In this document: one piece after another, positions 1,481 to 44,330 of the stretch
Numbering within the stretch: the stretch's first letter is position 1
Layout of the letters: each line of letters starts with the position of its first letter
Source of the DNA: Mesorhizobium sp.
GTDB taxonomy: Bacteria > Pseudomonadota > Alphaproteobacteria > Rhizobiales > Rhizobiaceae
Assembly (NCBI RefSeq): GCF_004962925.1
Contig: NZ_SUEO01000016.1
Span: 1 to 51,085 of the forward strand
DNA length: 51,085 bases
Direction: 5' to 3'
Notes under the pieces: generated by a model
Database searches by the model: none
What the model was told of the DNA's origin: nothing
Seen by the model: only the letters and a program-made list of their open reading frames with translations
Translations under genes and position numbers: made by a program

Positions 1481-4453
1481 CTAGAGTTCGATTTCCTCTC
1501 TCGGTCCTTCCGAGACTGAAGGGGCTCTGGAATCGGCCACCCAGAGCATTCCGTCGATCACTTCCGCCAGTCCGGCCACTGTCGGGCGCTCGAAGAGGTT
1601 GCGAAGCTGCACGTCGACGCCGAAGGTCTCCCGCATGCGCGAGACCGCCCGCATCACTAGGAGCGAGTGCCCGCCCAGGCCGAAGAAGTTGTCGTCACGG
1701 CCGATCGACTCGACCTTCAGGAGCTCGCACCACAGCGCGGCCAGCGTCTTCTCGGTCTCCGTCGAGGGGGCGGCGAAAGCTTGTGCAGGCTGGATGTTTT
1801 CCGCCGTCGGCTCGGGAAGCGCGGAGCGGTCGATCTTGCCGTTGGACGTGAGCGGCATCCGTTCGAGGCGAACATAGTGCGTCGGAATCATGGACTCCAA
1901 GAGTTCTTCGGCGAGGTGGGCGCGCAGGTCCGCCACGGTCAGGGGTTTCGACGAGACATAGTAGGCCACAAGTCGTGCGATGCCGTCTTCGGCCGCTGGC
2001 GGTTCGACATAGCCGATTTGGGCCATAATCTGCTTGATGCGGGGTACGTCCAGCTCGTCGTTGAGTTCGTCAATGGCTTCATCGCGCGTCTTCTGGCCGA
2101 GACGCACATCCCAGCTGTAGGGAAGGGCGTAATTGTGATGTCCCCGCTGCTTCTTATGAACGTAGATGCCGACATCGTTGATGAGGCAGTTCGTGGAGCG
2201 TCCTGTATCCGCAGGCCGATTCCATCCCGCCTGCGTCTTCAGGAAGTCGAGCATGTCCTCCAGAGGGACGCTCCAATAGCGGTAGAAGTCGATGAACTTC
2301 ACTTCCTCGAATACTGAGTCATTCCCGAAGGCATCCACGTCGAGATAGCGCGACACAGCATCCTCGCGGCGGTGATACTCCTTGCGCGCCTCGGCGATGA
2401 GCGCGTCCAGACGGGCCGGATCGTAGTCGTCCCGCTTGAAGACCTCCTCGGTCAGGCGCGTCTCAAAGAACTGGCCGCGGGACAACCCCGTCACGATGTA
2501 TCCGATCCCTCGTTCGCGGGCGACGTTTGTGGCCAGGGTGTAGATCGTCTTGAAGCAACCGTTGCAGACGTTCGCGAACCGTTTCAGGCTGTCGACGAAG
2601 ATCTCGTTCATATGCGGCGTGCTTCCCCAGTGGTGATCCACGCCGAGTGAGTTCACGAGCCGCCTGATATTGGCCTTGGCTCCTTCCGAAATGAAACCGT
2701 TGTCGAGGGTGAAGGTAAGCGGTTTCACCCCCATGGCGACGAGCTTGCACAGCATAAAACTGCTGTCTTTGCCGCCGCTCAACAGCACGATGCAGTCGTA
2801 AGGTCCCTTCCGGTTAGCCTGCATCTCCGCGATGAGAACCTGGAGGTCATCCGATGTCTTGAAATAGGTCTGCGCCTTGTCGACATAGGTGTCGAAGGCC
2901 CGGCATAGATTGCAGACGCCTGCCGCATCGAATGTCGTGCCGGGCAGGCCGGACTCAACACCGCACCGTTCGCAATAACGCACTTGTGTCGCTGGTTTCG
3001 CCACCGGGGTGGCGATGGCAACGACAGCGCATTCCTGAACGTGCGGGTGCTTCAGCAGCCGCGCTTCGATCTCGCCCAGCTCGACACGCGCGCCACCAAC
3101 CTTCACCTGATGATCGGCGCGGCCGAGAAAGTCCAGGCGCCCTTCCGAGTTCCAGCGGGCGAGATCGCCCGTCCTGTACAGCCGCAGCTTCGAAAACCCA
3201 TCTCGGGGATCGGTGACCGTGAGGAAACGCTCATCGGTCAAGTCAGGGCGATTGAAATAGCCTCTCACGAGACCGTCGCCGGCAATGAACATCTCACCGA
3301 TGATGCCGGGGGCGGTGGGCTGATGTGCCTTGTTGAGGACGTAGATGCCCGCATTGGCGGCCGGAACGCCGATCGGCACCGATGCGGATTGATCCCGGTC
3401 GATGTCGAAACGGTGAATCATGCAGCCCACAGTGGCTTCGGTTGGTCCGTACTCGTTGTAGATCTCGATAGGATGGGGGATGGCTTTTGTGATATCGCGA
3501 GCCAACTCGGTTTTGAGGTCCTCGCCACCCACGATGAACTTGCGCAGCCTTGTGGTCTCAAGATTGCGGTCGCGGATCATCGCGAGATGCGCCGGCGTCA
3601 GCTTCATGATATCGACGGCATTGTCGTCGATGACCTTGAGCACCACCATGCTCTGGACTCCGGGATCACCAAGATAGACCACGATGCGGCCGCCGGTGAT
3701 GAGTGGCGTGAAGAGCGTCGTGACGGTCAGGTCGAAGGCGAGGGATGAGAAAAGGGGCCATGCGAGACGTTCGCGGGAACTGTACACCCGAGCGGCCCAC
3801 CAGATGTAGTTCACCAGGTTCCGGTGCTCGATCACGACGCCCTTGGGCGTGCCGGTCGAGCCGGAGGTGAAGATGATATAGGCGGCGCCGTCCGGAGTGG
3901 CAGCGGACGGTCGGGCCGAGTCCGGCTGATTCAAAATCGACCCGAAATCGGCGTCGAGCACAAAAATGTCGGCAAGGTTCGGGGAAACGACCGATTGCAG
4001 GCGCGCCTGAGTGATCGCCACCGGCGCCCGCCCGTCGGTCCCGTTGGCAATGTCCTTCAGGATTGTTGCCAGACGCCCCTTCGGCGTTGCCGCATCCACC
4101 GGCACATAGGCTGCGCCGGACTTCAGGACGCCTAAGATCGCGACGACGACTTCAATGGAGTGCTCCATGAACACAACGGCAATCCGACCCGGCCCCACGG
4201 TCGAACTTAGATGCGTGGCCATCTGGTTGGAGCGTTCGTTGAGCTGCTGGTACGTCAGCGTTGCGTCGCCGAAGCGGATCGCTTCAGCGTCAGGACTACG
4301 CGTCGCCTGGTCGCGGAAGAGATCGATGATCGTCCTGTCCGACGGGTAGGGCGCTGCCGTGCCGTTGTACTCGACAACCAGCGCCTGATGATCGGCATCT
4401 TTCAGCAGGGGAAGCGCTACGCCCTCCGCCGCGATAGGTAGGACTTCATTCAT
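1481..4453 (-). CDS. NRPS-like protein: adenylation domain interrupted by PP-loop ATP-pyrophosphatase (N-acetyl sugar amidotransferase/WbpG-like) domain, then PCP
   Basis: 990 aa; A3 FTSGSTGTPKG, A5 NEYGPTE, A7/A8 YRTGD..GRADHQVKVGGARVELGEIE; PP-loop SGGKDSS with CERC/CNLC/CNGC motifs; A9/A10 LLESMIPTHY..SNGKIDR; PCP FFGLGGHSLL; no condensation domain. Confidence 0.93.
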   Translation of the reverse strand: MNEVLPIAAEGVALPLLKDADHQALVVEYNGTAAPYPSDRTIIDLFRDQATRSPDAEAIRFGDATLTYQQLNERSNQMATHLSSTVGPGRIAVVFMEHSIEVVVAILGVLKSGAAYVPVDAATPKGRLATILKDIANGTDGRAPVAITQARLQSVVSPNLADIFVLDADFGSILNQPDSARPSAATPDGAAYIIFTSGSTGTPKGVVIEHRNLVNYIWWAARVYSSRERLAWPLFSSLAFDLTVTTLFTPLITGGRIVVYLGDPGVQSMVVLKVIDDNAVDIMKLTPAHLAMIRDRNLETTRLRKFIVGGEDLKTELARDITKAIPHPIEIYNEYGPTEATVGCMIHRFDIDRDQSASVPIGVPAANAGIYVLNKAHQPTAPGIIGEMFIAGDGLVRGYFNRPDLTDERFLTVTDPRDGFSKLRLYRTGDLARWNSEGRLDFLGRADHQVKVGGARVELGEIEARLLKHPHVQECAVVAIATPVAKPATQVRYCERCGVESGLPGTTFDAAGVCNLCRAFDTYVDKAQTYFKTSDDLQVLIAEMQANRKGPYDCIVLLSGGKDSSFMLCKLVAMGVKPLTFTLDNGFISEGAKANIRRLVNSLGVDHHWGSTPHMNEIFVDSLKRFANVCNGCFKTIYTLATNVARERGIGYIVTGLSRGQFFETRLTEEVFKRDDYDPARLDALIAEARKEYHRREDAVSRYLDVDAFGNDSVFEEVKFIDFYRYWSVPLEDMLDFLKTQAGWNRPADTGRSTNCLINDVGIYVHKKQRGHHNYALPYSWDVRLGQKTRDEAIDELNDELDVPRIKQIMAQIGYVEPPAAEDGIARLVAYYVSSKPLTVADLRAHLAEELLESMIPTHYVRLERMPLTSNGKIDRSALPEPTAENIQPAQAFAAPSTETEKTLAALWCELLKVESIGRDDNFFGLGGHSLLVMRAVSRMRETFGVDVQLRNLFERPTVAGLAEVIDGMLWVADSRAPSVSEGPREEIEL

Positions 4454-4504: not shown

Positions 4505-5521
4505 TCAGCTTTTTTGGATTGCCTGGCGATAAAGTTCTGCGATGGCAGGTGCGTCCGGTTCCTCCAGCATAAGGGGATCGTTGCAGTCCTCGGGCCCGAA
4601 ATAAAATTCGGCATGGGGCACCACTCGAAGCCATCGGTGCGGTGCGGCACCCGATCGCCGCCAGGCCTTGTTCGGAAGGAATATGCATACTCGACCCGAA
4701 TACGGAGTGGGAATGTACCGCCGCAAAGCCGTGATCGCCGTGGATTTGAGTCGAGCTCTGCTCGCCAGCACCGGATCTGTCGTGACAGGCTCGTTGCTTT
4801 TGCGAACGAGGGTCACGAGAGCGCGGACGCGCTCGCCAAGGTTCCGGAGGCGACTGCCGAAATATCGGAGACGGGCGCCGAATGTCGGCAGCTTCGCCAT
4901 CTCTCGCAAGCACGAATCGGCGCTGCGCTTGGCAAAGAAATACAGCAGACGCGGCAATTCCTTATAGGTGGTGGGGTGAAGAGGGGCAAAAAGCGCTATG
5001 CATGGGACCTCCGCTCCGCGTTGACCCAGGATTTTTGCCAGTTCGAAAGCGGTTGCAGCGCCGGAGCAGTAACCGGCGATGATGTACGGACCGGCGGGCT
5101 GATATTCGACAATCTGGCGGGCGAAGTACTCGGCGATATCTTCGACGCGGTTCATCGGCTCGCTCTGCCCATCGAAGCCAGACGGTTGGAGTGCGTAAAA
5201 CGGTTGATCGCCGCCCAGGTGTTTCGACAGGTCCGAGAATGAGAAGGGCGCCCCGATATGCCCGGGTACGGCGTAAATGGGCGTGCGTGTTCCGCGAGAC
5301 TGCAGGGGAATGATTGCAGGCTGTTGCAGGGCCGCCGCCTTGGCCATATTCAGAAACGCGATGATCTCGCCCTTCCGGTCCCGCAACTGGTCGCGAAACT
5401 CTGCCGTCAGTGCGCCAACTGGGGCGTTGCACCGCAGCCGGTCGCCCTCTACCCAGACTTTGATGTCCCTGACCGCGAGGTCTGCGAGAAGCTCCGGGAA
5501 TTGCATCACGTCCGCCGACAT
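4505..5521 (-). CDS. thioesterase with N-terminal TubC-type docking domain
   Basis: 338 aa; N-term FPELLADLAVRDIKVWVEGDRLRCNAPVGALTAEFRDQLRDRKGEIIAFL (TubC_N-like); TE fold with AGYCSGAATAFELA nucleophile elbow. Confidence 0.88.
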   Translation of the reverse strand: MSADVMQFPELLADLAVRDIKVWVEGDRLRCNAPVGALTAEFRDQLRDRKGEIIAFLNMAKAAALQQPAIIPLQSRGTRTPIYAVPGHIGAPFSFSDLSKHLGGDQPFYALQPSGFDGQSEPMNRVEDIAEYFARQIVEYQPAGPYIIAGYCSGAATAFELAKILGQRGAEVPCIALFAPLHPTTYKELPRLLYFFAKRSADSCLREMAKLPTFGARLRYFGSRLRNLGERVRALVTLVRKSNEPVTTDPVLASRARLKSTAITALRRYIPTPYSGRVCIFLPNKAWRRSGAAPHRWLRVVPHAEFYFGPEDCNDPLMLEEPDAPAIAELYRQAIQKS

Positions 5522-5826: not shown

Positions 5827-6711
5827 TCAATTCCGGACTACCACGGTCCCGATGTACTCAGATTTCGGTACGAACCTACGGACAGCCCAATCCCTTTCAT
5901 CCCAAGAGAGGGGCTGTCCTAAGCCGCACCCCAAGGCCTTAGAAATAGCTTCCAGCCGGGTCCAGCGCCGGAGGAAGCCTTCCAGCCGGTCTTCCGGACC
6001 AAGGGCGGTGTAGGACCCATACTCGGAGGAGGAAAAGCAGAGCGCTGCGATCTCGTCCGCTTCGGGCACAGGGAGAACTGCCTCGATGTCCACCCCGACT
6101 TCCTGCCCGGTCGAAAGGGCGACGACTGCGACATCTCCGGATCGTGAGACGCTGAAGCGCAAATCGCGAGAAGGCATGCGGTGCGAGAGGTGGGGTTTGC
6201 CTAGGCGTCCATATTCTAGTTCGACGTCGGACGGCGAGATTCCCAGTTTGGAAGCGAGGACCCGGCGAAGCTGCCCACGGGTAGCGACAAAGCGGCGGCG
6301 GTCCCGCTCCAGTCTCAGCCCCTCGGCGCGCCGACGTTCCTCTTCGTTGAGGCAAACGCCTATCTCGCGGATGACGTTCTGCTCCGCATCGAGCATGAAT
6401 GCCAGGATCTCCAAACCACCATTCTCGAGAACCGGCATTATGATCCCGGGTCTCAGCTCGACTTCATCCAAAAAGTTTGGCGAGGGCGGTGCCGGCTCCA
6501 CAAGAGGCTGACTGACGCCGAATCTGACGGGTCGAATTAATCGATGTCCCGGCCGAGCCGAGAGAGCATGAAAATTCCAGCTCGCGCCCAATACGCCATG
6601 GCGATCGTCCCCGCCCGCGCCAGAAAATTGGATAAAGTCGAACTCGGGGCAGCAGTCAGAAGTCATACGTGGTTTCCGATCGCTGGGAGCGCTCATCCCG
6701 CACAAGCGCAA
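5827..6711 (-). CDS. 4'-phosphopantetheinyl transferase (Sfp type)
   Basis: GVDIEAV ... FSSSEYGSY ... FLRRWTRLEAISKALGCGL motifs; start codon uncertain. Confidence 0.88.
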   Translation of the reverse strand: MRLCGMSAPSDRKPRMTSDCCPEFDFIQFSGAGGDDRHGVLGASWNFHALSARPGHRLIRPVRFGVSQPLVEPAPPSPNFLDEVELRPGIIMPVLENGGLEILAFMLDAEQNVIREIGVCLNEEERRRAEGLRLERDRRRFVATRGQLRRVLASKLGISPSDVELEYGRLGKPHLSHRMPSRDLRFSVSRSGDVAVVALSTGQEVGVDIEAVLPVPEADEIAALCFSSSEYGSYTALGPEDRLEGFLRRWTRLEAISKALGCGLGQPLSWDERDWAVRRFVPKSEYIGTVVVRN

Positions 6712-7149
6712 TTCGTTCTAATGAACGCCAGCGCCATTCATGCTGACTTCCTGATGAAACAATCACGTAAGGGCGAAAGCAAGGAGCGCCTGGTGGATAT
6801 TTTGATGTATGGATGGCTACTTCAAAAGACCCAGACATACTGCTGCCCGCAAGGGGTCTGCCGGAGGCGAAACTGCCAAATAATCTTGCCGGATTGACAA
6901 TGAACTGGCGCTCCAATGATCCCCTGCTCTGACGAGCAAGGCTGCTGCGCCGGCTCTGGCCAAAGAGCAGTTACTTGAATGCGGAATTACGTCAGATCAA
7001 AGCAATCTCCGCGCTTCGCTTGCGCGGCCGAGTGACCGCCTGGGCGATGGGCTTTTGCTGCTGGACGACCGAAGCCTCCCGGCCTGCCCGCGAGGCTTTC
7101 ATGCCTTACGGAAGAATTGGGATCGTGTCCCTGGGAGTAGCTGACGGCT

Positions 7150-7560
7150 TGGTTTCCACAGCAGGCCCGGCTGGCGTCCTACTCGGCGGTGGAGGCACGC
7201 AGATAGAGGCGGGCGGCGATCTCGACCGTCTTTCCGACGAGCGACGCGCGCCAGTCCCGCATTGTGGGCGTTGCGCAGCCGCTCGGACGATCATATCGTT
7301 CGGGTGCCCGATCATCTCCGCAAGGTCCCAGCCAAACAGCGCGTCGGCCGCATGGTTGGCGAACCGGATGACGCCGTGGACGTCGATGGTGAGGATCGCA
7401 AGCTCATGGCGTCGGCAAAGCCCATCATCGCCGCGCGCGATCTCGCTGTGGCGAAGCTCCAACTGCTGCATCACGAGCGCCGCGAGCTCCTGCAGCGCCC
7501 GGCGCCGACGATCTGCCGCGCCGATGGCTTGGTCCAAACGATGGCAGCCCTTCGTTGAGC
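7150..7560 (-). pseudogene. GAF/PAS sensor protein remnant
   Basis: LQELAALVMQQLELRHSEIA (GAF end) then IDVHGVIRFANHAADALFGWDLAEMIGHPNDMIV (PAS); continues as RLRNAHNAGLARV in another frame, i.e. frameshifted. Confidence 0.5.
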
Positions 7561-7763
7561 AGGATGGCGCCGTCATCACCGGCCGGCACACTGATGTTGG
7601 CGAGCGTCCGCCGATAAACGGTCCTGTCGGCCGCTGCGGAGAACCTCGCCCTGCTGGCGGCGGATCAGGTGGACCGAGGGGGTACCCCCCGCACGGACAG
7701 AAAGGGGCCGAAAGGTCCTTATTCAACGACTTAATATGGTCGCTACGGGCTACTTGTAATCTA

Positions 7764-7848
7764 TGGCTCCAGCGGTAGGAGTCGAACCTACAAGCCTTTC
7801 GGCGTCGCATTAACAGTGCGGTGCGTCTACCAATTTCGCCACGCTGAA
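7764..7848 (-). tRNA. class-II tRNA with anticodon GUU (Asn-like), CCA encoded
   Basis: TTCAGCG TG GCG AAATTGGTAGA CGC A CCGCA CTGTTAA TGCGA CGCCGAAAGGCTT GTAGG TTCGACT CCTAC CGCTGGA G CCA; 7-bp acceptor, 3-bp D stem, 13-nt variable arm with GCC/GGC hairpin, 5-bp T stem. Confidence 0.85.
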
Positions 7849-7964
7849 ACATAGATTAGACAAATCCAATCTCTCCTTGGTCCTCGCCTGCCGAAGAGCC
7901 GAACCCGCCGATCGATTGTCGGCGATGCAGAGCGCACTCCGTGGCAGAGATGACGCTGAGACAA

Positions 7965-9263
7965 TCAGCACCTCAACTCTGGTTGATCTTTCCGGTACGT
8001 TGAAACCGGTTCAGTTTTGACGGGGCGCCAGATCACACGGCGCAGCGTTTCTTTCGCGCCTTTTGCTGTCTCCAGCAGGGCCGGACCTGGATCGCCCCAG
8101 CGCCAGTAGGCGTTGTGAATCCGGTGACCTGGTGGATAGTAGCAGCCGGCGCCAAGGAACCGGGCCGAGATGAAATCCCTGAATTCATCGCGCCAGACGT
8201 GAGTCGGATCAAGTTCCAAGGGTGGGTATGACTGCCCGGCGGCATCGCAATAGCCGACATGACAGAGATTGATGCCACACAGGGCCGAGATCTCCACCTG
8301 CCCATCGACCCGGCCAACGGTTGGCTCGACAAACCAAAAGCCGCCGTCACGCTGGTCGCGTTTGTACTCCATGCTGGCGAAGCCGTTTGTCAAACCGATT
8401 GATCGGAAGAAGCGGATTGTCAGATCTTCCAATTCCTCGGCGACTTCTGGCGCCGCCCAGCAACTAGCGGTCACGCCGATCTGAGGCGGCCAGGAACGGC
8501 CTTTGCGGCCCGTAAAGGCGACCGAAGAACCCGGGCGCAGGTAGCACAGGCAAAAGTAGATGGAGTCATTCGACCCCTCGATCCACTCCTGAACAATCAC
8601 CTCCCCCACCGCGTCCAGCACTTGCTCGCAGAGCAACCGAGCGTCGGCTTGGGTCTCAATGCGATAGGCCTTCTTAAAAGAGCCGTCATACGCCGGGGAA
8701 CGGCTGTTTGGCTTCACGCACAATGGAGGCCGAAGCTCACGCAGGCCGTTCAAGTCACCATGGTTATGCGCCAAGAGGGTTTTTGGCACCGGAAAGCCAC
8801 CGCGCTGGGCCAGACGAAAAAACGGCTCCTTCAGAGTCAAGTCGACCAGCAGTCCGTGGAGTGGGAGTTGGAAGCCGAACCAGGGAGCTACACGGTCACG
8901 GTGCCGCGACACTGCCAATAGCGGACGGTCGTCGGCAAATATTATTACGCCTCCATGAGGCATTCCCTCTCGCAGTAGAACTAATTCCTCTACAAATTCT
9001 TCGCCGTTAAACGTGGAAACGATAACTCGTCGGGCATATCGCGATACAGCTGCCACATCATATTTTGTCTCAACGACTACAATCGGCCGAAGCCCCGCTT
9101 GAGCCAAGCTGCGCACAGCGGACAGGCCGTTTATTCCTCCTCCCAAGACCAGGGGTGTCGGTGCGCCACCGGCTGCTAGGCTGTGTTGCGATGGATTTGT
9201 CACCTGACTAGGCATGGTAGCCCTAATCCTAGCGAGAAGACTGACTTCTCTTGATTCGTTCAA
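7965..9263 (-). CDS. ATP-grasp family ligase (carboxylate-amine ligase-like)
   Basis: 432 aa; N-terminal VLGGGINGLSAVRSLAQAGL, CVKPNSRSPAYDGSFKKAY, VIVQEWIEGSNDSIYFCLCYL, NGFASMEYKRDQRDGGFWFVEPTVGR. Confidence 0.82.
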   Translation of the reverse strand: MNESREVSLLARIRATMPSQVTNPSQHSLAAGGAPTPLVLGGGINGLSAVRSLAQAGLRPIVVVETKYDVAAVSRYARRVIVSTFNGEEFVEELVLLREGMPHGGVIIFADDRPLLAVSRHRDRVAPWFGFQLPLHGLLVDLTLKEPFFRLAQRGGFPVPKTLLAHNHGDLNGLRELRPPLCVKPNSRSPAYDGSFKKAYRIETQADARLLCEQVLDAVGEVIVQEWIEGSNDSIYFCLCYLRPGSSVAFTGRKGRSWPPQIGVTASCWAAPEVAEELEDLTIRFFRSIGLTNGFASMEYKRDQRDGGFWFVEPTVGRVDGQVEISALCGINLCHVGYCDAAGQSYPPLELDPTHVWRDEFRDFISARFLGAGCYYPPGHRIHNAYWRWGDPGPALLETAKGAKETLRRVIWRPVKTEPVSTYRKDQPELRC

Positions 9264-10611
9264 GGTGAGTGTTCACAGGCATTTTCGGGCTGAAGATGTC
9301 GACAGCGGAGCGGTGCTGCCCCGCACTCGTGCGAGGGGATTCTCGCCACAGCCTAGGGCGCAGACTCGCCAGGTGCCTTGATATCGTGCGAGAGGTGAAG
9401 TCGGTGCCAAACACGAAACGCATGACCGGTCCAAACGTCGTAGTCGATATATGCCCGACGAAGTACAACCCCGGGATGGACGACTCGAAGTTCGCGGACA
9501 GCCTCGGAGTTTTTCCGAAAAGACGCAGCTGTTCGATAATCGAAGAGCTTAAGAAAGGAAAACGACGCACGTCCGCCTTATAGCCTGTCGCCGCGATTAC
9601 ATGATCTGCCTCTACGACTTGAGTGTTGCCGTCCATGGAAAGCAATTTTAATTGTATTTCGTGCTCTGATAATCTCACTTCCTGCGGCGAGCGTCCTACA
9701 AGCAAAGGAATGGTTGCTGCCCGATCCTTCATTGGCTCCCCTCCAGACGGCGAGGGAAACTTTTCTGCCATTTGAAGTCGATAGTACTCGGGGAAATAGC
9801 GAAAGAGCCAAGGCCAGTCCGCGAACAGTCGATGTTTCCAACCCGGGCCGATTCCAGAAACGGGACATGCCAGGCGGCGTAGCATCGGGTGCGAGCCTGA
9901 GCCTCCCCACCGGCCACTGTAAATGATCGTCGGCTTGCGCGAGATAAGCTGAACCTCGACCCGCGCTTCGTTCAAGAGCACCGCTATATCAATTGCGGAT
10001 GCTCCGCTTCCGAGTACCGCGACCCGCTGCCCCCGGAATCTTTGGAGGTCGTGAACGTCAGCGGCATGCGAAAGCTTATCGCTGGGCAGTCGGGACAACA
10101 ACTCGGGGATATGGCGGAAATAGGTCAGGCCCGTTGCAATCACCACCTTGCGCGTCCTGAAGGATAGCCCGCTCTTCATGCGAAGATCGAATCCTTCTGG
10201 AGCCGGAACCAAGGAAACGAGTTCCTCGTCTTCCACGCCCGGCACGCAGCGTTTTTGGAACGCCAACCCGTAGGCGGAGAATGTTCTCAGCGGAATTGGA
10301 AGATCCAGATGGTCATAAGGATTGCCGTGCTCGATGCAGAATTGCCGAAGAGTAAAAGCATGCTCGGGATCAGAAAGGTTTGATGCGAACCCAGCTGACT
10401 TGAGCAGCATGCCTTTCGGCATCTTGCTTTTCCAGCTCTCCATCGGGCTGCCGATTATCCGGCAGTCAATGTCCAGTCCGCGCAAGTGTGCAGCTACCGA
10501 CAGTCCATAGGGGCCAGCACCGACAATGGTCACGTCGCACAACTTATACAAAGCGTACCTCCCATGGATCCTCGCCTGCCGAAGGGCAGCACCCGCCGAC
10601 CGCATATCCAA
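9229..10611 (-). CDS. FAD-dependent monooxygenase / pyridine nucleotide-disulfide oxidoreductase-like
   Basis: VTIVGAGPYGLSVAAHL (FAD GxGxxG) and VAVLGSGASAIDIAVLL (second Rossmann); start may be internal. Confidence 0.85.
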   Translation of the reverse strand: MDMRSAGAALRQARIHGRYALYKLCDVTIVGAGPYGLSVAAHLRGLDIDCRIIGSPMESWKSKMPKGMLLKSAGFASNLSDPEHAFTLRQFCIEHGNPYDHLDLPIPLRTFSAYGLAFQKRCVPGVEDEELVSLVPAPEGFDLRMKSGLSFRTRKVVIATGLTYFRHIPELLSRLPSDKLSHAADVHDLQRFRGQRVAVLGSGASAIDIAVLLNEARVEVQLISRKPTIIYSGRWGGSGSHPMLRRLACPVSGIGPGWKHRLFADWPWLFRYFPEYYRLQMAEKFPSPSGGEPMKDRAATIPLLVGRSPQEVRLSEHEIQLKLLSMDGNTQVVEADHVIAATGYKADVRRFPFLSSSIIEQLRLFGKTPRLSANFESSIPGLYFVGHISTTTFGPVMRFVFGTDFTSRTISRHLASLRPRLWRESPRTSAGQHRSAVDIFSPKMPVNTHLERIKRSQSSR

Positions 10612-10663: not shown

Positions 10664-12022
10664 TCAAGCCGCGGCCTGTGTCATGTGAGCAACAATGCTC
10701 CCTAGCACCCGCTTGGCATCACGCAGGTTTGCCTCGATGCGGCGCTCTGGAGTGTCTCTGCCTATTGCGATCCACTTCATGGGATGCTCCGCATTGGCCA
10801 GGTGGGACTTGTGCCCGGAGAAGCCTGCCAGAAAATCGTAGCCGCACTCCCCGCGTCCGATGCTGTCCTCAATAGCCAGAACATGGCTGATAAGCCCGGG
10901 CTTGAGCCGACCGTCGCGCTCATAAAGAAAGCCGCTTTGGTAGTTGTAAACACGGCCGTCATGCACGAAATTGTACAGGACCCCAATTGTCTGGTCCCCA
11001 GCCAACGTCCGTGAGATGCGGACGGCCCCGGTGGGAACTCCGTGTGCAATGAGCTCCTCGTGAAATCGACGGAAGCTCGGATTGGCAAAGGCTCCCCTGC
11101 GTCCCCATCGCGACTGATGAAGCTCGGCGAGCAAATCAAACGCGGCGAGCGCCTCCGATGTCACTTCGACGGTCCGGAACGCAATGGGGCCGCGTTCCGC
11201 ATATAGCCGCATGGCACGGCTTACCGCTTGGCGAGTATTGCGGCCCAATGTGGCGCGGTAATTTCCGCCTTTCTGGCGGACTTTGGCGAAATCGATCCAC
11301 CGTGCCGTATCTTCTGCTTTCACCTCAGTAAGGAGCCCGGCCCGGCCCGCTATGCGACAAGCGGCCAACTCGAAGTCCGGATCAATTCCGGAGAGCACCA
11401 GTTGGTCAGAGTGGCGCAAGTGATGCGCCAAGGCCTCGACGCATGCCACTCGAGTGGCATCGGCCAGGGATCGCTCCGCAAGAATATCGTTGTACTCGAT
11501 GAACAATCGATCGAAGCGAACATCTCCGGTTTCATTGAGCAGCCAACGCGCCCGCGCATGCCGCCCGAAACTCCACGCCCTCCGCCGGCAAATAATCGCC
11601 AACCCAACGATCCTGCTTGACGTCCGAGCGACTAGAAGATGTGGTTGCGCGCCCCCCGGCAGATGCCGCAGCCAAGTTCCGATCCAGAGCCAGGACAGAT
11701 AGAATGAGTGAGTTGCTCGCGTTTCGAGCTCCTTCCAAACGGTCTCGAGTCTCACGATGTCCGGCAAGGCCTCCACGGCAACGTCGATGACCGTATCCTG
11801 GCGCATGGCTTGTTCTACTGAAGCCACGCGATCGGGTTCCGCACCTATGGCTGAGACATCAAGAGGTCCTGATATACAGCCATCTTCCTGATACTTTGCG
11901 CATTGCGGCGGGAATGCCAGGAGTATCCTCGCTGCGCGCTGCTGTTCGTCCATGGAGCACTCGGGGTTTTCCTGTTTAGAGAAGACTTCAAGTCGCGAGG
12001 CGCTGGAAGTGAAGACTTGCAA
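10664..12022 (-). CDS. GNAT family protein, BioF2/CelD-like (Fem-related acyltransferase fold)
   Basis: LETVWKELETRATHSFYLSWLWIGTWLRHL ... AAFDLLAELHQSRWGRRG ... NYQSGFLYERDGRLKPGLISHVLAIEDSIGRGECGYDFLAG. Confidence 0.8.
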   Translation of the reverse strand: MQVFTSSASRLEVFSKQENPECSMDEQQRAARILLAFPPQCAKYQEDGCISGPLDVSAIGAEPDRVASVEQAMRQDTVIDVAVEALPDIVRLETVWKELETRATHSFYLSWLWIGTWLRHLPGGAQPHLLVARTSSRIVGLAIICRRRAWSFGRHARARWLLNETGDVRFDRLFIEYNDILAERSLADATRVACVEALAHHLRHSDQLVLSGIDPDFELAACRIAGRAGLLTEVKAEDTARWIDFAKVRQKGGNYRATLGRNTRQAVSRAMRLYAERGPIAFRTVEVTSEALAAFDLLAELHQSRWGRRGAFANPSFRRFHEELIAHGVPTGAVRISRTLAGDQTIGVLYNFVHDGRVYNYQSGFLYERDGRLKPGLISHVLAIEDSIGRGECGYDFLAGFSGHKSHLANAEHPMKWIAIGRDTPERRIEANLRDAKRVLGSIVAHMTQAAA

Positions 12023-13226: not shown

Positions 13227-14975
13227 TCAATTCGGAACGATCCTCTCCTCCCTCACCACGCGGGCAGGGTCGACATCGCTTGGGTTGCACGCGGCTGGCA
13301 AGCTCTCGCAGGTCGGCGACAAGGTCGGGACCGACGAACCGGCAGGCTCTCTTGGCTCGCTTTCGCCCACGATGATGTTGACGAGGTCGCCTGGCTGCAA
13401 CAGGGTCATCCCAACGGTCTCGATGCTGACCGGCCCGGCTGCCGATTGCCGCACGATTTGATAAGTTGCGCTGTTTTCGTCCTTCGCAAACTGGGCGCGG
13501 GTCACCGGCAACGTGTACAGGACGCCTTCGCTGGCGTTCAACTCGCGAACATTGGCCGCGATCTGGCTCTCCGTGGTCTCGATCTCGACCTCCAGATCGT
13601 TCCTGAGGTCGGCCCGGGTCCGCAACACCTCAAACTCCAGCGACGCGAGGCGCTGCTTGGCGCTCGCGTATTGGTTGAGGGCGTCCTGCCGACGCTGTTC
13701 CGCGTCGGACAACTCACTCTGGATCTGAGCCATCACCGTCATGCTAAGAACTTTGCGGTCCACGAGCGTGCGCATGCTATTGACCCGTTCCTGGCGCAGC
13801 TTGACGAGTTCGTCGAGCGACTCCATGCGCCCATAAGCGACAACATCCTGCCTGGACGCCTCCAGCGCACGCATGGTCGCGCGCTCGCGATCTTTGCGGG
13901 CCGTGGCGACGGCCTTGCGCCGGTCGCTCTGCTCGTTGACGAGGTTGGCAGCTTCGGTGGCGCCGGCCAGTTCCAGCAACTGGCGCGGGATAGTGGGTGC
14001 CGTACCGTCGCGCTCGGCCTTCAGCACCGCCGCGCGCGCGAGCAACTTCAACATGGCATCGATCGCCCCGCTCCGCTTCTGGGTCTCACGCACGGTTTCG
14101 ATCTTCTGCCACGGCTCGCTCTCGGCCCGGTCGAGTCCGCCGGCCAGCGCGATCGCGTGCAGGATCGTCATGCCGGCCGCGTACTTGAACGAGCCAGGAT
14201 TCTTGACCGGCCCCAGCACGTAAATGGGTGGGCGCTCCAGCGCCAGGATGTTGACCAGTCCCTCGCGGCCCAGCAGTTGATTGAAGGTTTCCACCAGGTC
14301 GGCCTGTACCTGTTGCGTCGACCGGTTGGCGACCGGAATGAAGCCAAGCAAAGGCACGGAAATCGTGCCGTCCTCTTGGACAATATATTCGCCGCTCAGT
14401 TCCGGACGCTGCTGGATGCCGTGCAAGGCCGAGGACGCGCGCCCCCACTTGTCTTCCTCGACGTCGACGCGCTCGTAGAACGCGACCTTGAGGCGGTCGC
14501 CGACGACAAACAGGGCTCCGGTTGGCACGCCTGGCGCATTGCTGAGGGTTTTGGGGCGCTCGGCACTGGTGGGGACGGCAGGGACGACGCTCCGATCGAC
14601 CAACGCCGCGGCCGATGCATCAGAAACGATCGCGCGGGAGGGTTCGGCCGTGGCTTGAACCGGTTGCTCTAGCCAGCTATCGATAGCAGCAGACACCTTC
14701 TGCACCACGGCTCCGGAGACATCCGCGGCGTTCTGCACCACGGCGCCGGAAACAACCTCGACCTTGTGCAATACGGCTCCGGAGATATCCTCGACCTTCT
14801 GTATCACGGGTCCGGAAACAACCTCGACGCCCCGCCAGTTTCTGATCGCGGCCCCTCCCAAGGCGGCGACCCCGCAGAGCCCAAAGGCAAGCAGGGCGGC
14901 CTTCTTTCCCCCGCGGCGAGCCGCCCGTGACGAAGGGGCGACGGGGTCGGAATTGTATTTTGTATCCATCGCCAT
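13227..14975 (-). CDS. polysaccharide export protein (Wza/ExoF-like, SLBB) with N-terminal TM
   Basis: 582 aa; LKVAFYERVDVEEDKWG..GEYIVQEDGTISVPLLGFIPVANRSTQQVQADLVE; PPIYVLGPVKNPGSFKYAAGMTILHAIALAGGL; coiled coil; second export domain near the C-terminus. Confidence 0.88.
   Translation of the reverse strand: MAMDTKYNSDPVAPSSRAARRGGKKAALLAFGLCGVAALGGAAIRNWRGVEVVSGPVIQKVEDISGAVLHKVEVVSGAVVQNAADVSGAVVQKVSAAIDSWLEQPVQATAEPSRAIVSDASAAALVDRSVVPAVPTSAERPKTLSNAPGVPTGALFVVGDRLKVAFYERVDVEEDKWGRASSALHGIQQRPELSGEYIVQEDGTISVPLLGFIPVANRSTQQVQADLVETFNQLLGREGLVNILALERPPIYVLGPVKNPGSFKYAAGMTILHAIALAGGLDRAESEPWQKIETVRETQKRSGAIDAMLKLLARAAVLKAERDGTAPTIPRQLLELAGATEAANLVNEQSDRRKAVATARKDRERATMRALEASRQDVVAYGRMESLDELVKLRQERVNSMRTLVDRKVLSMTVMAQIQSELSDAEQRRQDALNQYASAKQRLASLEFEVLRTRADLRNDLEVEIETTESQIAANVRELNASEGVLYTLPVTRAQFAKDENSATYQIVRQSAAGPVSIETVGMTLLQPGDLVNIIVGESEPREPAGSSVPTLSPTCESLPAACNPSDVDPARVVREERIVPN
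14698..14829 (-). repeat. four in-frame 33-bp repeats (11 aa) in the export protein gene
   Basis: VVSGPVIQKVE / DISGAVLHKVE / VVSGAVVQNAA / DVSGAVVQKVS encoded by consecutive 33-bp units. Confidence 0.85.
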
Positions 14976-22434: not shown

Positions 22435-23175
22435 TCAAATCTCTAACCCGGCTTCGTCGAGATCCTTAAAGAAAGCCGCCGTCAATTGGAAATCTGGCAG
22501 GGGTGCGGGCTCCTTGAATAAACCGTGATGCAATAGCCGAAGTGCATCACGCGCATCCTGCTTCTTTTGCTGAACGAAAGTTGCGGCGAGGATCTCCTGA
22601 TATTTCTCGACAACGAGATCACCTTCGCATGACAAGGCGTCAACGACGATGCGGGCGAGCGTGCGCTCGCGAAAATTGAGAGCTTGCGCGGCGCGCTCCA
22701 GGCTGGTTCGGTATTCAGCCGAAATGATGCCTCGACGGCAGGCCCCGCGAACCGTCATGCGAAGATCGATCAGCGCGTGGGTTATGGACGCGGAGTTTAC
22801 CTCCCATGGTCCGTGCAGCACGGCCACTGCATCGTCAGGCGCAAACGCAAAACGACGATACCACCGGTAGATGAGCCCCACTCCCTGCATGTATGGAAAA
22901 AGTTCCGCAGCGCGAAGAGCCCCCATGCTCGCTGCGCCTATTACCGGAACACCTTTCGCTATTGCCCAAAGGATTTCCTTGTGCCTGACCGCCGGCTCCG
23001 ACTGAAAGCCGCCGTCAATGATGACTATCGCACTCGGATCAAAATGCTGCACAGCCGCAATGATCGAACCCTGCACAGCCGGCGGAAGGCAGATCGCCTC
23101 CACCACTTCCAGCACTTCGCCCTGTGACAGGGTGGGACCGGCGAAGACCAGCTTGGGACGCATATGCCTAGCCAT
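22435..23175 (-). CDS. TfuA-like protein
   Basis: VFAGPTLSQGEV..; IVIIDGGFQSEPAVRHKEILWAIAKGVPVIGAASMGALRAAELFPYMQGVG; typical TfuA core; overlaps the ycaO stop. Confidence 0.9.
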   Translation of the reverse strand: MARHMRPKLVFAGPTLSQGEVLEVVEAICLPPAVQGSIIAAVQHFDPSAIVIIDGGFQSEPAVRHKEILWAIAKGVPVIGAASMGALRAAELFPYMQGVGLIYRWYRRFAFAPDDAVAVLHGPWEVNSASITHALIDLRMTVRGACRRGIISAEYRTSLERAAQALNFRERTLARIVVDALSCEGDLVVEKYQEILAATFVQQKKQDARDALRLLHHGLFKEPAPLPDFQLTAAFFKDLDEAGLEI

Positions 23176-24325
23176 GCAACAGCGGCGTTAAGGCTGGTAT
23201 GACGATCCTGACGACCGACAGGTCGCCGAGCGGTCTCGTATCGAGCTGAATCATGTACACTGTATCGATTCCTGCGCCCTCGATCTGTGCGAGAAGAGCG
23301 GACATCCTATTTCCCGCGCTGGTGTAATTCTGCCCGGCAATCGCATGGAAATGTACGTCACGAGGGCCGTCGGACAGGAGACGTCGGTGCGCCGCAATTT
23401 TTTGCCAGTCGGGATATTTTGGATAGGACGCACGCGTCAGGTCATCACGGGCGCCGGAGATCGCCGTCAGTCGCGACTGCGCCGCCTCGTAGATTGCGTG
23501 AACGATCGCGGACGCGGCATCGAAACCTGCAGCCGAGCCCTCTGCCGGATGGTGAAGAATTGCAGTTTCCGGCGGCCGATCCTCCATGAGATGGCACCAG
23601 ATCACCGGTAGTCCCAGCGGTGAGGGGGCGTGCCAAAGCCCCACCAGCAGGCCTTTGGCTTCCAGGCTTTCGAGAAGGCTCGCAACTGTCGGATGGTCGA
23701 TCGTTCTCGGGTCAATTCGACGGCGCTGGAAAAAGCCATGGATTCGCTCCGCCCGCGTGAGTGCGTCGCGCTCGATGCATTCCATTATCCCGTGCAGGAT
23801 AGAGTCCGTTTCCTCGAAGGAGGCCGCCAGGCCGGACGTCGATGAAGCGAAGATTTCCTCATGGGGCCGCGGCGGGAACACGTAGGCAGTGTGTACAAGC
23901 TCGAATGGGACCCAATCCTGCAGACCACCCTTGAGGATATTCTCGGCATGAATCCAAGCAATCTTCCTGCTGCGCCAGCCCGGGTCGACACCAGGCTGGA
24001 GATGGGCTTCGAATCTTTCAGGAGGAATATTCAGGGAGTCTGCGGAGGCCGCGATGGGGTCGTAGTGCGCCAAGCGCTCGGCAAAGTAGGACTCTGCGGC
24101 CTCGAGAATGGCCGATACCGCAGCTTCGGTTCTGGTCGGCCCCTTGCCTTGCGAAACGGAATTTAAAAGGGAGAAAGGCCTGACCGCCTGAACCACGGGT
24201 ATGTCGAGCACGTCGAGACCTGTGATGTCTGCAATCCGTGTGATGCCCAAGAGCTCGCGCATCGTCATTAGCCGCATGAGTGCTTCGCGCGGCTGCGGAC
24301 CCGAGCGCTCGTATCGTTCCAGCAT
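23168..24325 (-). CDS. YcaO-domain protein
   Basis: QGKGPTRTEAAVSAILEAAESYFAE; SILHGIMECIERDALTR; ASAIVHAIYEAAQSRLTAISGARDDL. Confidence 0.93.
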   Translation of the reverse strand: MLERYERSGPQPREALMRLMTMRELLGITRIADITGLDVLDIPVVQAVRPFSLLNSVSQGKGPTRTEAAVSAILEAAESYFAERLAHYDPIAASADSLNIPPERFEAHLQPGVDPGWRSRKIAWIHAENILKGGLQDWVPFELVHTAYVFPPRPHEEIFASSTSGLAASFEETDSILHGIMECIERDALTRAERIHGFFQRRRIDPRTIDHPTVASLLESLEAKGLLVGLWHAPSPLGLPVIWCHLMEDRPPETAILHHPAEGSAAGFDAASAIVHAIYEAAQSRLTAISGARDDLTRASYPKYPDWQKIAAHRRLLSDGPRDVHFHAIAGQNYTSAGNRMSALLAQIEGAGIDTVYMIQLDTRPLGDLSVVRIVIPALTPLLHG

Positions 24326-34685: not shown

Positions 34686-35834
34686 TCAGGCGGGCTCGGT
34701 CACGACGCCGATCCGGCGGTAGACGAATTGTTCGTCCTTCGAAGGAACTGCCGCAGCACGCTGGGCTTCGTCGATCAGCATTGCCATGCGCGCATGGATC
34801 GGCGATTTCGCGCATGCCGGGTCCGTGGCGGCGGCATCGCCGGCGATCGCCATCGCCTGGCAGCGGCAGCCGCCCCAGTCGATCTCACGCCGTTCGCAGC
34901 TGCGGCAGGGCTGTTGCATCCAGTCGGTGCCGCGAAAGGCATTGAATGCCGGCGAATCGGTCCATATCTCGGCCAGGCTGCGCGGTCCGAAACGCTCGAA
35001 GCTGAGCGACGGGATAGTCTGTGCGGCATGGCATGGCAGCACGGTGCCGTCCGGCGTCACCATGAAGGCGTCGCGCGCCCAGCCGCCCATGCAGGGCTTG
35101 GGATAGATGGCGAAATAATCCGGCGGGACGAAATCAATGTTCATGATGCCGGTGAGCCGTTCGCGTGCCGCCGCGACGATCTCCGCCTGCCGTTCAACTG
35201 CGTCACGCTCGGGCATCAGTTGATCGCGATTGGTCAGCGCCCAGCCGGCGTATTGCACGTTGGCGATCTCGAGCCGCTCCGCGCCCAGCGAAAGCGCCAG
35301 ATCGATGAATTCCGGCACTTCCTCGATGTTGTGGCGATGGATCGGCGCGTTGATGGTAAGCGGCAGGCCGGCCGCGCGAGCCCGGCGTGCCGTCTCCAGC
35401 TTCTTTTCGTGGCCGCCCTTGTGGTTGCCGATGCGGTCGGTGGTCGCCGGCCGTGCGCCTTGAAAGCTCAGCTGCAGATGGTCAAGCCCGGCTTCGGCAA
35501 ACGCCTCGATGCGGCCCTCGGCAATGCCGACGCCGGCGGTGATCAGGTTGGTGTAGACGCCGCGCGCCGAAAGCCCGGCGATCAATTGCTCGAGGTCGCG
35601 GCGCAGTGTCGGTTCACCGCCGGACAGATGCACCTGGAGAACGCCGAGATCGGCGGCCTGCGAGAACAGGTCGAGCCAGGTCTGTGTGTCGAGTTCGCGA
35701 TTGGCCTTCAGCAATTCGAGCGGATTGGAGCAATAGGGGCATTGCAGCGGACAGCGATGCGTCAGTTCCGCCAGCATGCCGATCGGGGGGAGAAGGGGCT
35801 CGCTCATAGCTTCACCAGCAGCTTGTCCGACCAT
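34686..35834 (-). CDS. pqqE: PQQ biosynthesis radical SAM protein PqqE
   Basis: LTHRCPLQCPYCSNPLEL; C-terminal SPASM Cys cluster QQPCRSCERREIDWGGCRCQA. Confidence 0.96.
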   Translation of the reverse strand: MVGQAAGEAMSEPLLPPIGMLAELTHRCPLQCPYCSNPLELLKANRELDTQTWLDLFSQAADLGVLQVHLSGGEPTLRRDLEQLIAGLSARGVYTNLITAGVGIAEGRIEAFAEAGLDHLQLSFQGARPATTDRIGNHKGGHEKKLETARRARAAGLPLTINAPIHRHNIEEVPEFIDLALSLGAERLEIANVQYAGWALTNRDQLMPERDAVERQAEIVAAARERLTGIMNIDFVPPDYFAIYPKPCMGGWARDAFMVTPDGTVLPCHAAQTIPSLSFERFGPRSLAEIWTDSPAFNAFRGTDWMQQPCRSCERREIDWGGCRCQAMAIAGDAAATDPACAKSPIHARMAMLIDEAQRAAAVPSKDEQFVYRRIGVVTEPA

Positions 35835-36100
35835 TCCTGCAGGAAGGCGACGACGTCGGCGGCCACGGCCTCCTGTTCGGCATCATAATCCGCGGCAAGG
35901 TCGGCAATGATGTGGCCGACCGTCGACCGTCCATCGCAGCGGCGCAATATGTCGAGGCTGATGTCGTTCGGCCAAAATATTTTTTCGGGCGAAAGCACGG
36001 CGAACGCCTGCCGCACGGGGTCGTACTGTATGCGCACGTGCTTCGGTAGCGACGGCACCGACTGCGGCGACACCAAGGCTCTTTCGCGCAGCGCCATCAT
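35804..36100 (-). CDS. pqqD: PQQ biosynthesis peptide chaperone PqqD
   Basis: 98 aa MMALRERALVSPQSVPSLPKHVRIQYDPVRQAFAVLSPEKIFWPNDISLDILRRCDGRSTVGHI..; overlaps pqqC and pqqE ends. Confidence 0.92.
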   Translation of the reverse strand: MMALRERALVSPQSVPSLPKHVRIQYDPVRQAFAVLSPEKIFWPNDISLDILRRCDGRSTVGHIIADLAADYDAEQEAVAADVVAFLQEWSDKLLVKL

Positions 36101-36855
36101 AGCGCTGCCTCCGGGCGGAAGGCGCCGGGCGGTATGTTTCCCGGCTCGCCATAGGCGTGTTGAAGCGCGTCGAGCATGGCCCAGAGTATATCGCATTTGA
36201 ACACCAATGCATCGATCGCCTGCTGCTGGCGTTCCGCCGTGTCGGCATGGCCGAGCACGTAGGCGAGGGCGAAGTCGGCGTCGCGCGAGGCCTGTTCGGG
36301 CCGTCGGCTGAAATAGGCCAGCGTATCCTCGGTGATGTAATCGTATTTGGCCAGCATCGCCGGCACCCGCTCGCCAATGATCAGCGGCGAGAACATCTCG
36401 GTCAGCGACGAGGCGACCGCCTCGAACAGCGTCCGGTTCGTGCAAAAGGAGAGGTAAGCGCCGACCGCGAAACGTGTCGCCGGCAGCGCCAGCCTTTCGC
36501 TCTTCACCGCATCGGCATCGAGACCGAGCGAGGTCGCCAGATGCAGCCAGCGCGCAATACCGCCGCTCCAGCCGTCCTCGCCGTCATGGTCCTCGATGCG
36601 TTTGCGCCAGGCGGCGCGAAACGCCGGATCCTCGGCATGTGCGAGGATCATGGCATCCTTGCGCGGGATGACAGCCTGGTAGCAATAGCGGTTCAGCGCC
36701 CAAGCCTGCATCTCGGTCCTCGACAGCGCACCGCTGGTCATCCTGTGATGGAAGGGGTGGCGGTTGTGATAGCGCTCGGCACCGACCTGACGCAGCACCG
36801 CTTCGAGCTCGCTGGAGGACAGGCCGTTCCTGGCCGCGTCGTGGAAATCACTCAA
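36097..36855 (-). CDS. pqqC: pyrroloquinoline-quinone synthase PqqC
   Basis: RYHNRHPFHHRMTSGALSRTEMQAWALNRYCYQAVIPRKDA. Confidence 0.96.
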   Translation of the reverse strand: MSDFHDAARNGLSSSELEAVLRQVGAERYHNRHPFHHRMTSGALSRTEMQAWALNRYCYQAVIPRKDAMILAHAEDPAFRAAWRKRIEDHDGEDGWSGGIARWLHLATSLGLDADAVKSERLALPATRFAVGAYLSFCTNRTLFEAVASSLTEMFSPLIIGERVPAMLAKYDYITEDTLAYFSRRPEQASRDADFALAYVLGHADTAERQQQAIDALVFKCDILWAMLDALQHAYGEPGNIPPGAFRPEAAL

Positions 36856-37790
36856 AATTCCATCTCCATCCCGTCGCGGGCGACTTCCCAGCCCGCCGCC
36901 TTGACCGCCGCGTGTTCGGCGGAATTCTCGTCCAGAACCGGGTTGGTGTTGTTGATGTGGACGAAGACACGGCGGCCGATCCTCACATCGGCCAAGCCGG
37001 CGATCGAACCCGCGTCTCCCGACATTGCCAGATGCCCCATGCGCGCACCGGTTTTTTGTCCGACGCCGGCGGCAATCATCTCGTCGTCCGTGTAGACCGT
37101 GCCGTCGAACAGAAGGCCGGCGGCATCGGCTAGGCGCGTGCGCAGGTTCGCATCGATGCGTGCGCAGCCCGGGATATAGAAGACTGAGCCGCGACTGCCG
37201 GCGCCGGCGATACGGACGCCGATCGTGTCGCCGGCGTCGGAGCTGAAATTGGCGTCCGGCTGGCCTCTTTCCTCGAGATAGAGGGCTATCTTCCCGGGCA
37301 CGGGAAAGCTCTCGACGGCCACGCCGGTGTCATGGCCGTCTGCATCGCAGATCGCCAGTTCTTCCGCCGGCGGCAAGGTGCGGCGCGGCACGAGCACCGG
37401 ATCGAGAACATTGAAAATCGAATTCGCCTCCAGCGTCGCCAGAACCTGTGTCGTTGCATAGATGGCGAAAGGCTGCCGCTCACGCAGGCTGAGCAGGCCG
37501 GCGACATGATCGACGTCGGCATTGGTCAGCACCACCGCACGGATAGGCGTCGAACGCAGCGGCGCATCGTGCGCGGGCTGCAATTCGGGCGTTTGCGCAA
37601 TCTGCTGGCGAATATCGGGCGAGGCGTTGAAGAGAACCCAGCCGGCCCCGTCCACTGATGCGGCGATGCTTGATTGGGTTCGCGATTGCACGCCAGCCAT
37701 CCCGCTGCGAGCCGCGCGGCTCAGGCGATAGTTGCAATTCCATTGCGGAAAGCCGCCGCCTGCCGCCGAGCCGATGATCTTCAACCGCAT
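36852..37790 (-). CDS. pqqB: PQQ biosynthesis protein PqqB
   Basis: IGSAAGGGFPQWNCNYRLSRAARSG..; LTNADVDHVAGLLSLRE. Confidence 0.96.
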   Translation of the reverse strand: MRLKIIGSAAGGGFPQWNCNYRLSRAARSGMAGVQSRTQSSIAASVDGAGWVLFNASPDIRQQIAQTPELQPAHDAPLRSTPIRAVVLTNADVDHVAGLLSLRERQPFAIYATTQVLATLEANSIFNVLDPVLVPRRTLPPAEELAICDADGHDTGVAVESFPVPGKIALYLEERGQPDANFSSDAGDTIGVRIAGAGSRGSVFYIPGCARIDANLRTRLADAAGLLFDGTVYTDDEMIAAGVGQKTGARMGHLAMSGDAGSIAGLADVRIGRRVFVHINNTNPVLDENSAEHAAVKAAGWEVARDGMEMEF

Positions 37791-37943
37791 TGCAATGCCC
37801 GCTCTGCGGCTTGTTCAACCAGCAGGAAATTTTCGGCCGCGAACGGCTTCGCGCCCGCATTGAACGCGTCAAAACCTTTCACGAAGATCCCACGCGGCAA
37901 GGGAGTGCGTGTCCCCGTTGCCAGGGACACGCACCACTGCGGC

Positions 37944-38039
37944 CTACTTCTTGGGAGGAATTTCAGCAGGCAGATACCGCGAAATTTCGAAGCCCGCAGC
38001 AACTTGGCACATGGTCGGTTTTGTCCAGCTCTTCTTCAT
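37944..38039 (-). CDS. pqqA: PQQ precursor peptide PqqA (31 aa)
   Basis: MKKSWTKPTMCQVAAGFEISRYLPAEIPPKK; E-x3-Y motif (EISRY); upstream of pqqB; not in the supplied ORF track. Confidence 0.92.
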   Translation of the reverse strand: MKKSWTKPTMCQVAAGFEISRYLPAEIPPKK

Positions 38040-38204
38040 GGCATTCTCCTCTTCTACCAGCCCGAAGGGGCCGATTCTTTTCTCAGTCAACCATTGCTGG
38101 GCACCATTGCAATGGCTCGTCCATCAGCTCTCAAAATGGACAAATGAAACGGTAGGTTCTGAAAAATCGAAAAACAAGACGATCGAAATAACAATGCTCA
38201 TGCT

Positions 38205-38780
38205 TCAATTGCCGATCACGTAAGGCTTCTTCTCCTCCAGCGGAAGGTTTGCACGTTCCCATCCATCGGCGCCGAGCGGATACCAGATCACCGAACTGTA
38301 GCCCCATTCGACGGCCCGTTTCGCGGCATTCCAGGACATCCAGCAATTCGTCATGCAATAGAACAGAATAGCGCGCGACTTGTCGGCACCGGCCTCGGCC
38401 GCGAGGCCTTGACGAAAATAGCTAGCGGTCTCCTCGGAGATAGCGCCGTAACCGACGTTGGCCAGCCAGATGCTGCCCGGGATGTCCTTTCTGATCGCCT
38501 CTCTCCAAATCGTTCCTGCCGGCAAATTGGCCGGCTTCGGCGTGTTCGGCATGACGTCGAAGAACACTGCCTTCTTCTCCCGCCACAGCGCCTCCGCCTC
38601 TGCCGTCGTCACCACCCTTGCGCCTCGCAGCGTCTGCGGCACCGGCGCCCGATATTCGTCCATCCGGTAGCCGCCGGGCTCGGCGATATCGCCAGCCCAC
38701 ATGGGTTCGGTCAGACTGAGAAGGCCCGCAGCGACCAGCAAAATCGTCTCCTTTCCCTTCATACCGGTATCGTCCCCCAT
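38205..38780 (-). CDS. PQQ-dependent catabolism-associated CXXCW-motif protein
   Basis: ILFYCMTNCWMSWNAAKRAVEWGYSSVIWYPLGADGWERANLPLEE; likely start MKGKETILL at ~38762. Confidence 0.87.
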   Translation of the reverse strand: MGDDTGMKGKETILLVAAGLLSLTEPMWAGDIAEPGGYRMDEYRAPVPQTLRGARVVTTAEAEALWREKKAVFFDVMPNTPKPANLPAGTIWREAIRKDIPGSIWLANVGYGAISEETASYFRQGLAAEAGADKSRAILFYCMTNCWMSWNAAKRAVEWGYSSVIWYPLGADGWERANLPLEEKKPYVIGN

Positions 38781-38790
38781 ACCGGTATCG

Positions 38791-39672: not shown

Positions 39673-39673
39673 A

Positions 39674-40198: not shown

Positions 40199-40379
40199 TC
40201 AGTGTCTTCCTTCATTTGCCACGGACACGGGTTTTTCTGTCGTGAAGCGGCATTGATCGATGTTTTGGGGCGCGGCGAAATCGAGAGCCCGGTCCTGGCT
40301 TCCCGGTGATCCGGGCTCTCGCTTTTCAAGCCTTGGTCTTTTCACAAGACCCGAGGCGTGTGCCTAAGGTTCCCGTGTG

Positions 40380-43322: not shown

Positions 43323-43349
43323 ACGCGTTACGCACGCCGCTTCGAGGCT

Positions 43350-44309: not shown

Positions 44310-44330
44310 GTCCAGCGCTTGTCGTGCGGT

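Follow-up and report, generated by a model that had tools for sequence, protein, structure and literature searches.

In the genus Mesorhizobium, we found a tRNA gene that forms a constant part of a small biosynthetic cassette: a real tRNA-Asn(GUU) with a class II body, strictly linked to the same genes, at the same position and next to the same polysaccharide exporter in each of the genomes that carry it. What is unusual here is the place of this tRNA in a cassette; its fold is not new. We see roughly an even chance that it is a dedicated, largely non-ribosomal tRNA which, once charged, would hand asparagine or aspartate to an enzyme of the cassette, most likely a GNAT-domain protein. An earlier note, made from the same DNA, had read the tRNA as dedicated to the surrounding block, and in this it was probably right. 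The DNA analysed (hereafter the window) is a stretch of 51,085 nucleotides of Mesorhizobium sp., a complete contig (NZ_SUEO01000016.1) from a draft genome assembled into 525 contigs.

The tRNA gene and its structure

On the minus strand, ARAGORN calls exactly the span 7764-7848 as an 85-nt tRNA-Asn(gtt) with an encoded CCA, which is the sole tRNA in the 51 kb and thus stands solitary, outside any array. The Rfam tRNA model RF00005 matches it with 47.7 bits compared to a gathering score of 29, and orthologues are present in six other genomes of the genus, by which the class-II-bodied tRNA with GUU, U1-A72, G73 and CCA of the earlier note is confirmed. Its acceptor stem (UUCAGCG/CGCUGGA) has a U1-A72 pair and a U2-G71 wobble and is followed by G73. 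The D arm is Leu-like, the anticodon loop reads CUGUUAA, positions 27 and 43 form a C.A mismatch, and the variable region of 14 nt folds into a GCC-GAAA-GGC hairpin with a GNRA tip, in place of the short loop of class I tRNAs. With G73 and GUU, both present in all seven copies of the cassette tRNA, it lacks the A73 and Leu anticodon of a tRNA-Leu; the nearest tRNAs in its own genome are Leu species with 64-69% identity (best Leu 69%). A misread tRNA-Leu(UAA) was ruled out, as shifting the loop disrupts the stem and G73 does not fit a tRNA-Leu.

Single-strand minimum free energy folding did not recover the cloverleaf of the window tRNA (z = -0.07), as often happens with unmodified tRNA sequences; that the tRNA is real is decided by comparison between genomes and by the covariance model and not by this folding. 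A chance origin is excluded because the same gene lies in the same place, with 94-96% identity, in six other genomes. Moreover, the check for a normal class I tRNA-Asn(GUU) elsewhere in the genome, proposed in the earlier note, was positive, so that translation has no need for the window tRNA. The same genome also has a second, odd class I tRNA-Asn(GUU) with G32 and an odd tRNA-Gln(UUG) with a Glu-like body and A73 (loci L318:3237-3311 and L319:5397-5470; C53 and C192 of this genome).

Directly upstream of the tRNA, alignment of the seven loci reveals a leader at 7849-7858 on the minus strand (TCTAATCTATGT in the window), the only upstream stretch that is conserved and kept in most copies, of which the AATCTA could potentially pair with a TAGATT 3' of the CCA in several copies. 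The overlapping open reading frame 7106-7852 was rejected as a gene, since it reads through the tRNA and holds just a PAS relic. This remnant of a PAS-domain gene, at about 7106-7600, lies between the tRNA and a phosphopantetheinyl transferase gene.

Composition of the cassette

All cassette genes are encoded on the minus strand. An acyl-CoA dehydrogenase family protein (224-1423), an A-PCP protein without condensation domain (1481-4453), a thioesterase with a TubC-type N-terminal docking domain (4505-5521), the tRNA, the GNAT-domain protein (10664-12022) and an SLBB/Poly_export polysaccharide exporter (13227-14975) make up the constant set, found in 7/7 loci. A 4'-phosphopantetheinyl transferase (5827-6711) is lost in L565 and broken in L570. 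The specificity residues of the A domain, DLTKIGEV, are invariant in the seven copies; as read by alignment to a GrsA sequence, they are close to DLTKLGEV, the Asn code. In the window only, and missing in the six orthologues, the A domain carries an insert (2021-2983) related to the N-acetyl sugar amidotransferase WbuX (TIGR03573, 138.6 bits), a WbuX-like PP-loop amidotransferase domain. Relatives of this fused protein with 42% identity occur on plasmids of Roseovarius and Pseudohalocynthiibacter, near genes for HisH/HisF-like amidotransferases.

The GNAT protein is a candidate aminoacyl transferase, present in 7/7 cassettes with its reading frame interrupted in L570. It matches PF13480 alone (Pfam, 95.7 bits), with no match to a FemAB model or to the PDB, and its AlphaFold model, built on a shallow alignment, has a pLDDT of 37; neither sequence nor structure tools tie it to FemX. 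Two accessory genes, encoding an ATP-grasp-like protein (7965-9263; a weak CPS-like match, with ATP-grasp-annotated relatives in Azospirillum) and an FAD-dependent oxidoreductase (9229-10611), are found in the window and L565 only. Their segment is bounded by a 59-bp direct repeat (78%) at 7856-7914 and 10544-10602, which suggests that it was gained or lost by recombination. The ATP-grasp protein, one of the nearby partner enzymes put forward by the earlier note, was discarded as tRNA partner since it is absent from 5/7 cassettes.

The cassette is part of an exopolysaccharide locus and has glycosyltransferases, LuxR regulators and a possible flippase around it. Its probable task is to attach an amino-acid group to a sugar polymer that the cell secretes.

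Linkage of the tRNA to the cassette

Close orthologues of the GNAT gene (77-89%) are found in 6 of the 145 other genomes of the genus, and all six loci hold an 85-nt tRNA-Asn(GUU) at the same position. A BLAST search with the tRNA over 146 genus genomes returned exactly the same seven genomes, which upholds the proposed tie between the tRNA and a biosynthetic block. An exact pattern demanding TGTTAA found just 1/147 genus genomes, because this motif is lost in most orthologues. In all seven loci, the tRNA sits between co-directional genes. A plasmid of Mesorhizobium sp. B1-1-8 carries the syntenic polysaccharide locus on both sides (82-84% identity), including the exporter gene that is the right-hand anchor, without cassette or tRNA.

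No match to the GNAT protein was found in the other sampled genera of the family, nor to the tRNA in a class-wide sample of 152. More distant GNAT relatives (31-53%) occur in Azospirillum, Indioceanicola, Photobacterium and Vibrio without an adjoining tRNA, so that, if the GNAT protein uses the tRNA, either private tRNA use would be a local invention or its relatives would use host tRNAs. Homologues of the tRNA outside the genus were not associated with NRPS, GNAT or ATP-grasp genes, a point on which the earlier note is not supported.

Conservation of the tRNA

Between genomes, the tRNA is 92-99% identical, and the fourfold sites in four cassette genes are 68-89% identical; in 21/21 genome pairs the tRNA has the higher value. 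It is intact in 7/7 copies with conserved stems, and the flanks past the short leader align poorly. Only 9 of the 85 positions vary among the seven copies, all of them outside the anticodon, acceptor stem, T stem, discriminator and CCA, and the tip of the variable arm occurs as five different loops (GAAA, GCGA, GGAA, GCAA and GAGA) that are all GNRA. As only seven sequences are compared, the anticodon would be spared among two variable loop sites by chance with a probability of about 0.29.

Normal decoding of ANN codons requires U33 and A37 (as t6A37). In the cassette tRNAs, L567 has A33 instead of U33, and at position 37 two copies have A, four have G and one (L569) has C, so that U33 or A37 is lost in 6/7 copies, that is in all six orthologues, and the window copy keeps both. 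Class I tRNA-Asn genes in mobile arrays have U33 in 60/60 and A37 in 59/60. Judged by these comparisons, the tRNA is under purifying selection, with its aminoacylation elements invariant and its decoding elements drifting. The poor use by the ribosome that had been suggested earlier from the window copy is therefore backed by the orthologues and not by the window copy itself, which keeps both elements and could decode.

Probable charging of the tRNA

No protein of the genome reaches the family cut-off for AsnRS, and GatB was found; therefore GatCAB probably forms Asn-tRNA by amidating Asp-tRNA. Asn identity in bacteria resides in the anticodon and G73 (PMC9976931), and U1-A72 is the signal for the amidotransferase GatCAB in tRNA-Gln; GUU, G73 and U1-A72 are invariant in all seven copies. 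Four proteins of the genome score above the asparagine synthetase cut-off, so that the cell is not short of free Asn. A long arm and G73 are both preferred by SerRS, which makes seryl charging of the cassette tRNA a possible side reaction.

Long-armed tRNA-Asn in phages and mobile arrays

The earlier note had considered the class-II GUU tRNA as a possibly new kind, an idea that had to be given up: our sequence searches indicate that it is a common molecule of mobile elements. Not a single stretch in the collection of bacterial and archaeal genomes combines a Leu-type D arm with a GUU loop, compared to 37 viral stretches that do, and the structural pattern (long-armed GUU tRNA with A72, G73 and CCA) occurs in 75 genome stretches and at least 120 in viral contigs. 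After a stem check of the long-armed GUU candidates, 30 genome loci and 111 viral loci passed. Among the 30 loci in bacterial records, 26 sit among at least six other tRNA genes, and the remaining four comprise a lone archaeal record, a chance match within a coding sequence and two class I genes with a gap or duplication. With bases 72 and 73 unfixed, G73 is present in 188 of 189 distinct long-armed GUU sequences, U1-A72 in 166 of them and G1-C72 in 22; some of these sequences were gathered with A72 and G73 fixed, which inflates the share of U1-A72, and the loci added without constraint have G73 in all but one. A search with one fixed anticodon stem yielded 101 long-armed loci versus at least 120 class I loci.

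Annotated phages with a long-armed tRNA-Asn include the Brevundimonas phages Kikimora and Gurke and the Pseudomonas phages Milchi and phiPsa374, and in the latter two a class I tRNA-Asn adjoins the long-armed one. The nearest relative of the window tRNA is the Brevundimonas jumbo phage gene (Kikimora/Gurke), with about 88% identity. The phage and mobile tRNAs share with the window tRNA the GUU anticodon, G73, the long variable arm and, mostly, U1-A72. They lie among many tRNA genes, whereas the window tRNA is solitary and bound to a cassette, with orthologues that lack decoding elements. An open-access literature search yielded nothing on class-II tRNA-Asn, which is weak evidence; long-armed tRNA-Asn is widespread in phages and apparently unremarked in the open-access literature searched.

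Long arms also occur on other tRNAs of these arrays (loci L061-L298; ARAGORN parsing only), namely on 17/81 Lys(UUU), 12/64 Lys(CUU), 14/19 Ile(UAU) and some Thr(UGU) genes; the Ala, Asp, Phe, Val and Ile(GAU) genes have no such arm, and by the same parsing about half of the Leu tRNAs are short-armed. The long arms of Ile(UAU) have a CAGAU/UAGAU motif in common. In a 635-kb uncultured phage, a long-armed tRNA-Gln(UUG) (L103:995-1076) is much like the long-armed tRNA-Asn type.

Possible role of the cassette tRNA

The case for a dedicated tRNA draws its weight from linkage, conservation and loss of decoding elements combined. In the mechanism that we propose, a long-armed tRNA-Asn of phage or mobile type would have been captured by the small biosynthetic cassette in the exopolysaccharide locus and then retained. 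AspRS would charge it with Asp, GatCAB might amidate the Asp-tRNA to Asn-tRNA, and the charged tRNA would donate Asp or Asn to a cassette enzyme standing in for a condensation domain, most likely the GNAT protein. The acceptor would be either the amino acid (predicted Asn) that the A-PCP protein carries or, in the polymer, an amino sugar. This full picture, of a private, phage-derived tRNA freed from decoding and kept only as aminoacyl donor for an amino-acid-modified exopolysaccharide or small peptide, we put forward tentatively, its chances being a little short of even.

Known systems offer partial parallels. In Staphylococcus aureus, tRNA-Gly isoacceptors feeding FemXAB have been proposed as dedicated tRNAs for non-ribosomal peptide bonds, much as we propose here; they differ in amino acid, have a class I body and are not part of a biosynthetic cassette (PMC4052509). 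The weak EF-Tu pair A51-U63 of these non-proteinogenic tRNA-Gly (PMC4052509) is present in 7/7 cassette tRNAs (T stem GUAGG/CCUAC), but the phage relatives have it as well, which makes it weak evidence. G18G19 is lost in the S. aureus tRNAs, whereas the D-loop GG is kept in the cassette tRNA. In Streptomyces lividans, the livipeptin system has, like the cassette, an A-PCP type NRPS without C domain beside a candidate transferase, and a tRNA-utilising enzyme was proposed to form the bond for this C-minus NRPS; this enzyme is a relative of the L/F-transferases, and no cluster-encoded tRNA is mentioned in the livipeptin literature examined (PMC10548850). GNAT-fold enzymes such as VlmA, DhpH-C, PacB and Orf11 use aminoacyl-tRNA in natural product pathways and have been described with host tRNAs (PMC12945691). 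For the cassette protein, a relationship to FemABX is no more than possible. Its match to PF13480 alone, the GNAT relatives without an adjoining tRNA, the small set of seven sequences and the supply of free Asn indicated by the asparagine synthetase matches speak against the proposed mechanism.

Alternatively, the tRNA might come from a phage and serve translation as a plain additional tRNA that is carried along with the cassette and either decodes Asn codons or replaces tRNA cut by anticodon nucleases, the latter a role proposed for phage tRNAs (PMC10264068). The abundance of the same type in phage arrays, the nearest relative in Brevundimonas phages and the U33 and A37 of the window copy fit this, and the last of these speaks against a dedicated tRNA. 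If translation were selected, however, the decoding elements should persist, whereas the orthologues have A33, G37 or C37, and the cassette tRNA is solitary instead of part of an array; we therefore consider this explanation unlikely. A pure phage hitch-hiker is weakened further by the six orthologous cassettes that all hold the tRNA. Given the position between co-directional genes in all seven loci and the leader next to it that is conserved in most copies, a mid-operon tRNA fold cut by RNase P/Z could also separate or stabilise the flanking mRNAs or sense amino acid supply, but such a processing or regulatory element leaves the invariant GUU, G73 and acceptor stem next to variable positions 33 and 37 unexplained, and is quite improbable.

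It is very improbable that the tRNA serves as the platform of a tRNA-dependent route to Asn, on which GatCAB would convert Asp-tRNA to Asn-tRNA to feed the Asn-specific A domain after release: the lack of an AsnRS above cut-off, the presence of GatB and the Asn-like A-domain code agree with it, but the four asparagine synthetase matches argue against it. There is the slimmest chance for a decaying passenger or integration site without RNA function. The nearby PAS relic, the phosphopantetheinyl transferase that is lost or broken in two loci and the direct repeats around the FAD/ATP-grasp insert would fit this, but all seven tRNA copies are intact between diverging flanks and have kept their stems and GNRA loops, and no integrase was found among the scanned window proteins.

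The means by which aminoacyl-tRNA is drawn away from the ribosome into other pathways have been described as unclear in most cases (PMC4052509). If the dedicated reading is true, a biosynthetic-operon tRNA in which loading is kept and decoding drifts would be a clean natural example of the split between both functions, and solitary tRNA genes inside biosynthetic cassettes would provide a handle for genome mining.

Further along the window, a YcaO and TfuA pair (22435-24325) possibly belongs to a separate peptide-modifying cluster. The region 34686-48216 resembles an XoxF-type methanol dehydrogenase region: it has PqqE/C/B genes, an ABC transporter and a PQQ dehydrogenase accompanied by a SoxYZ-like carrier.
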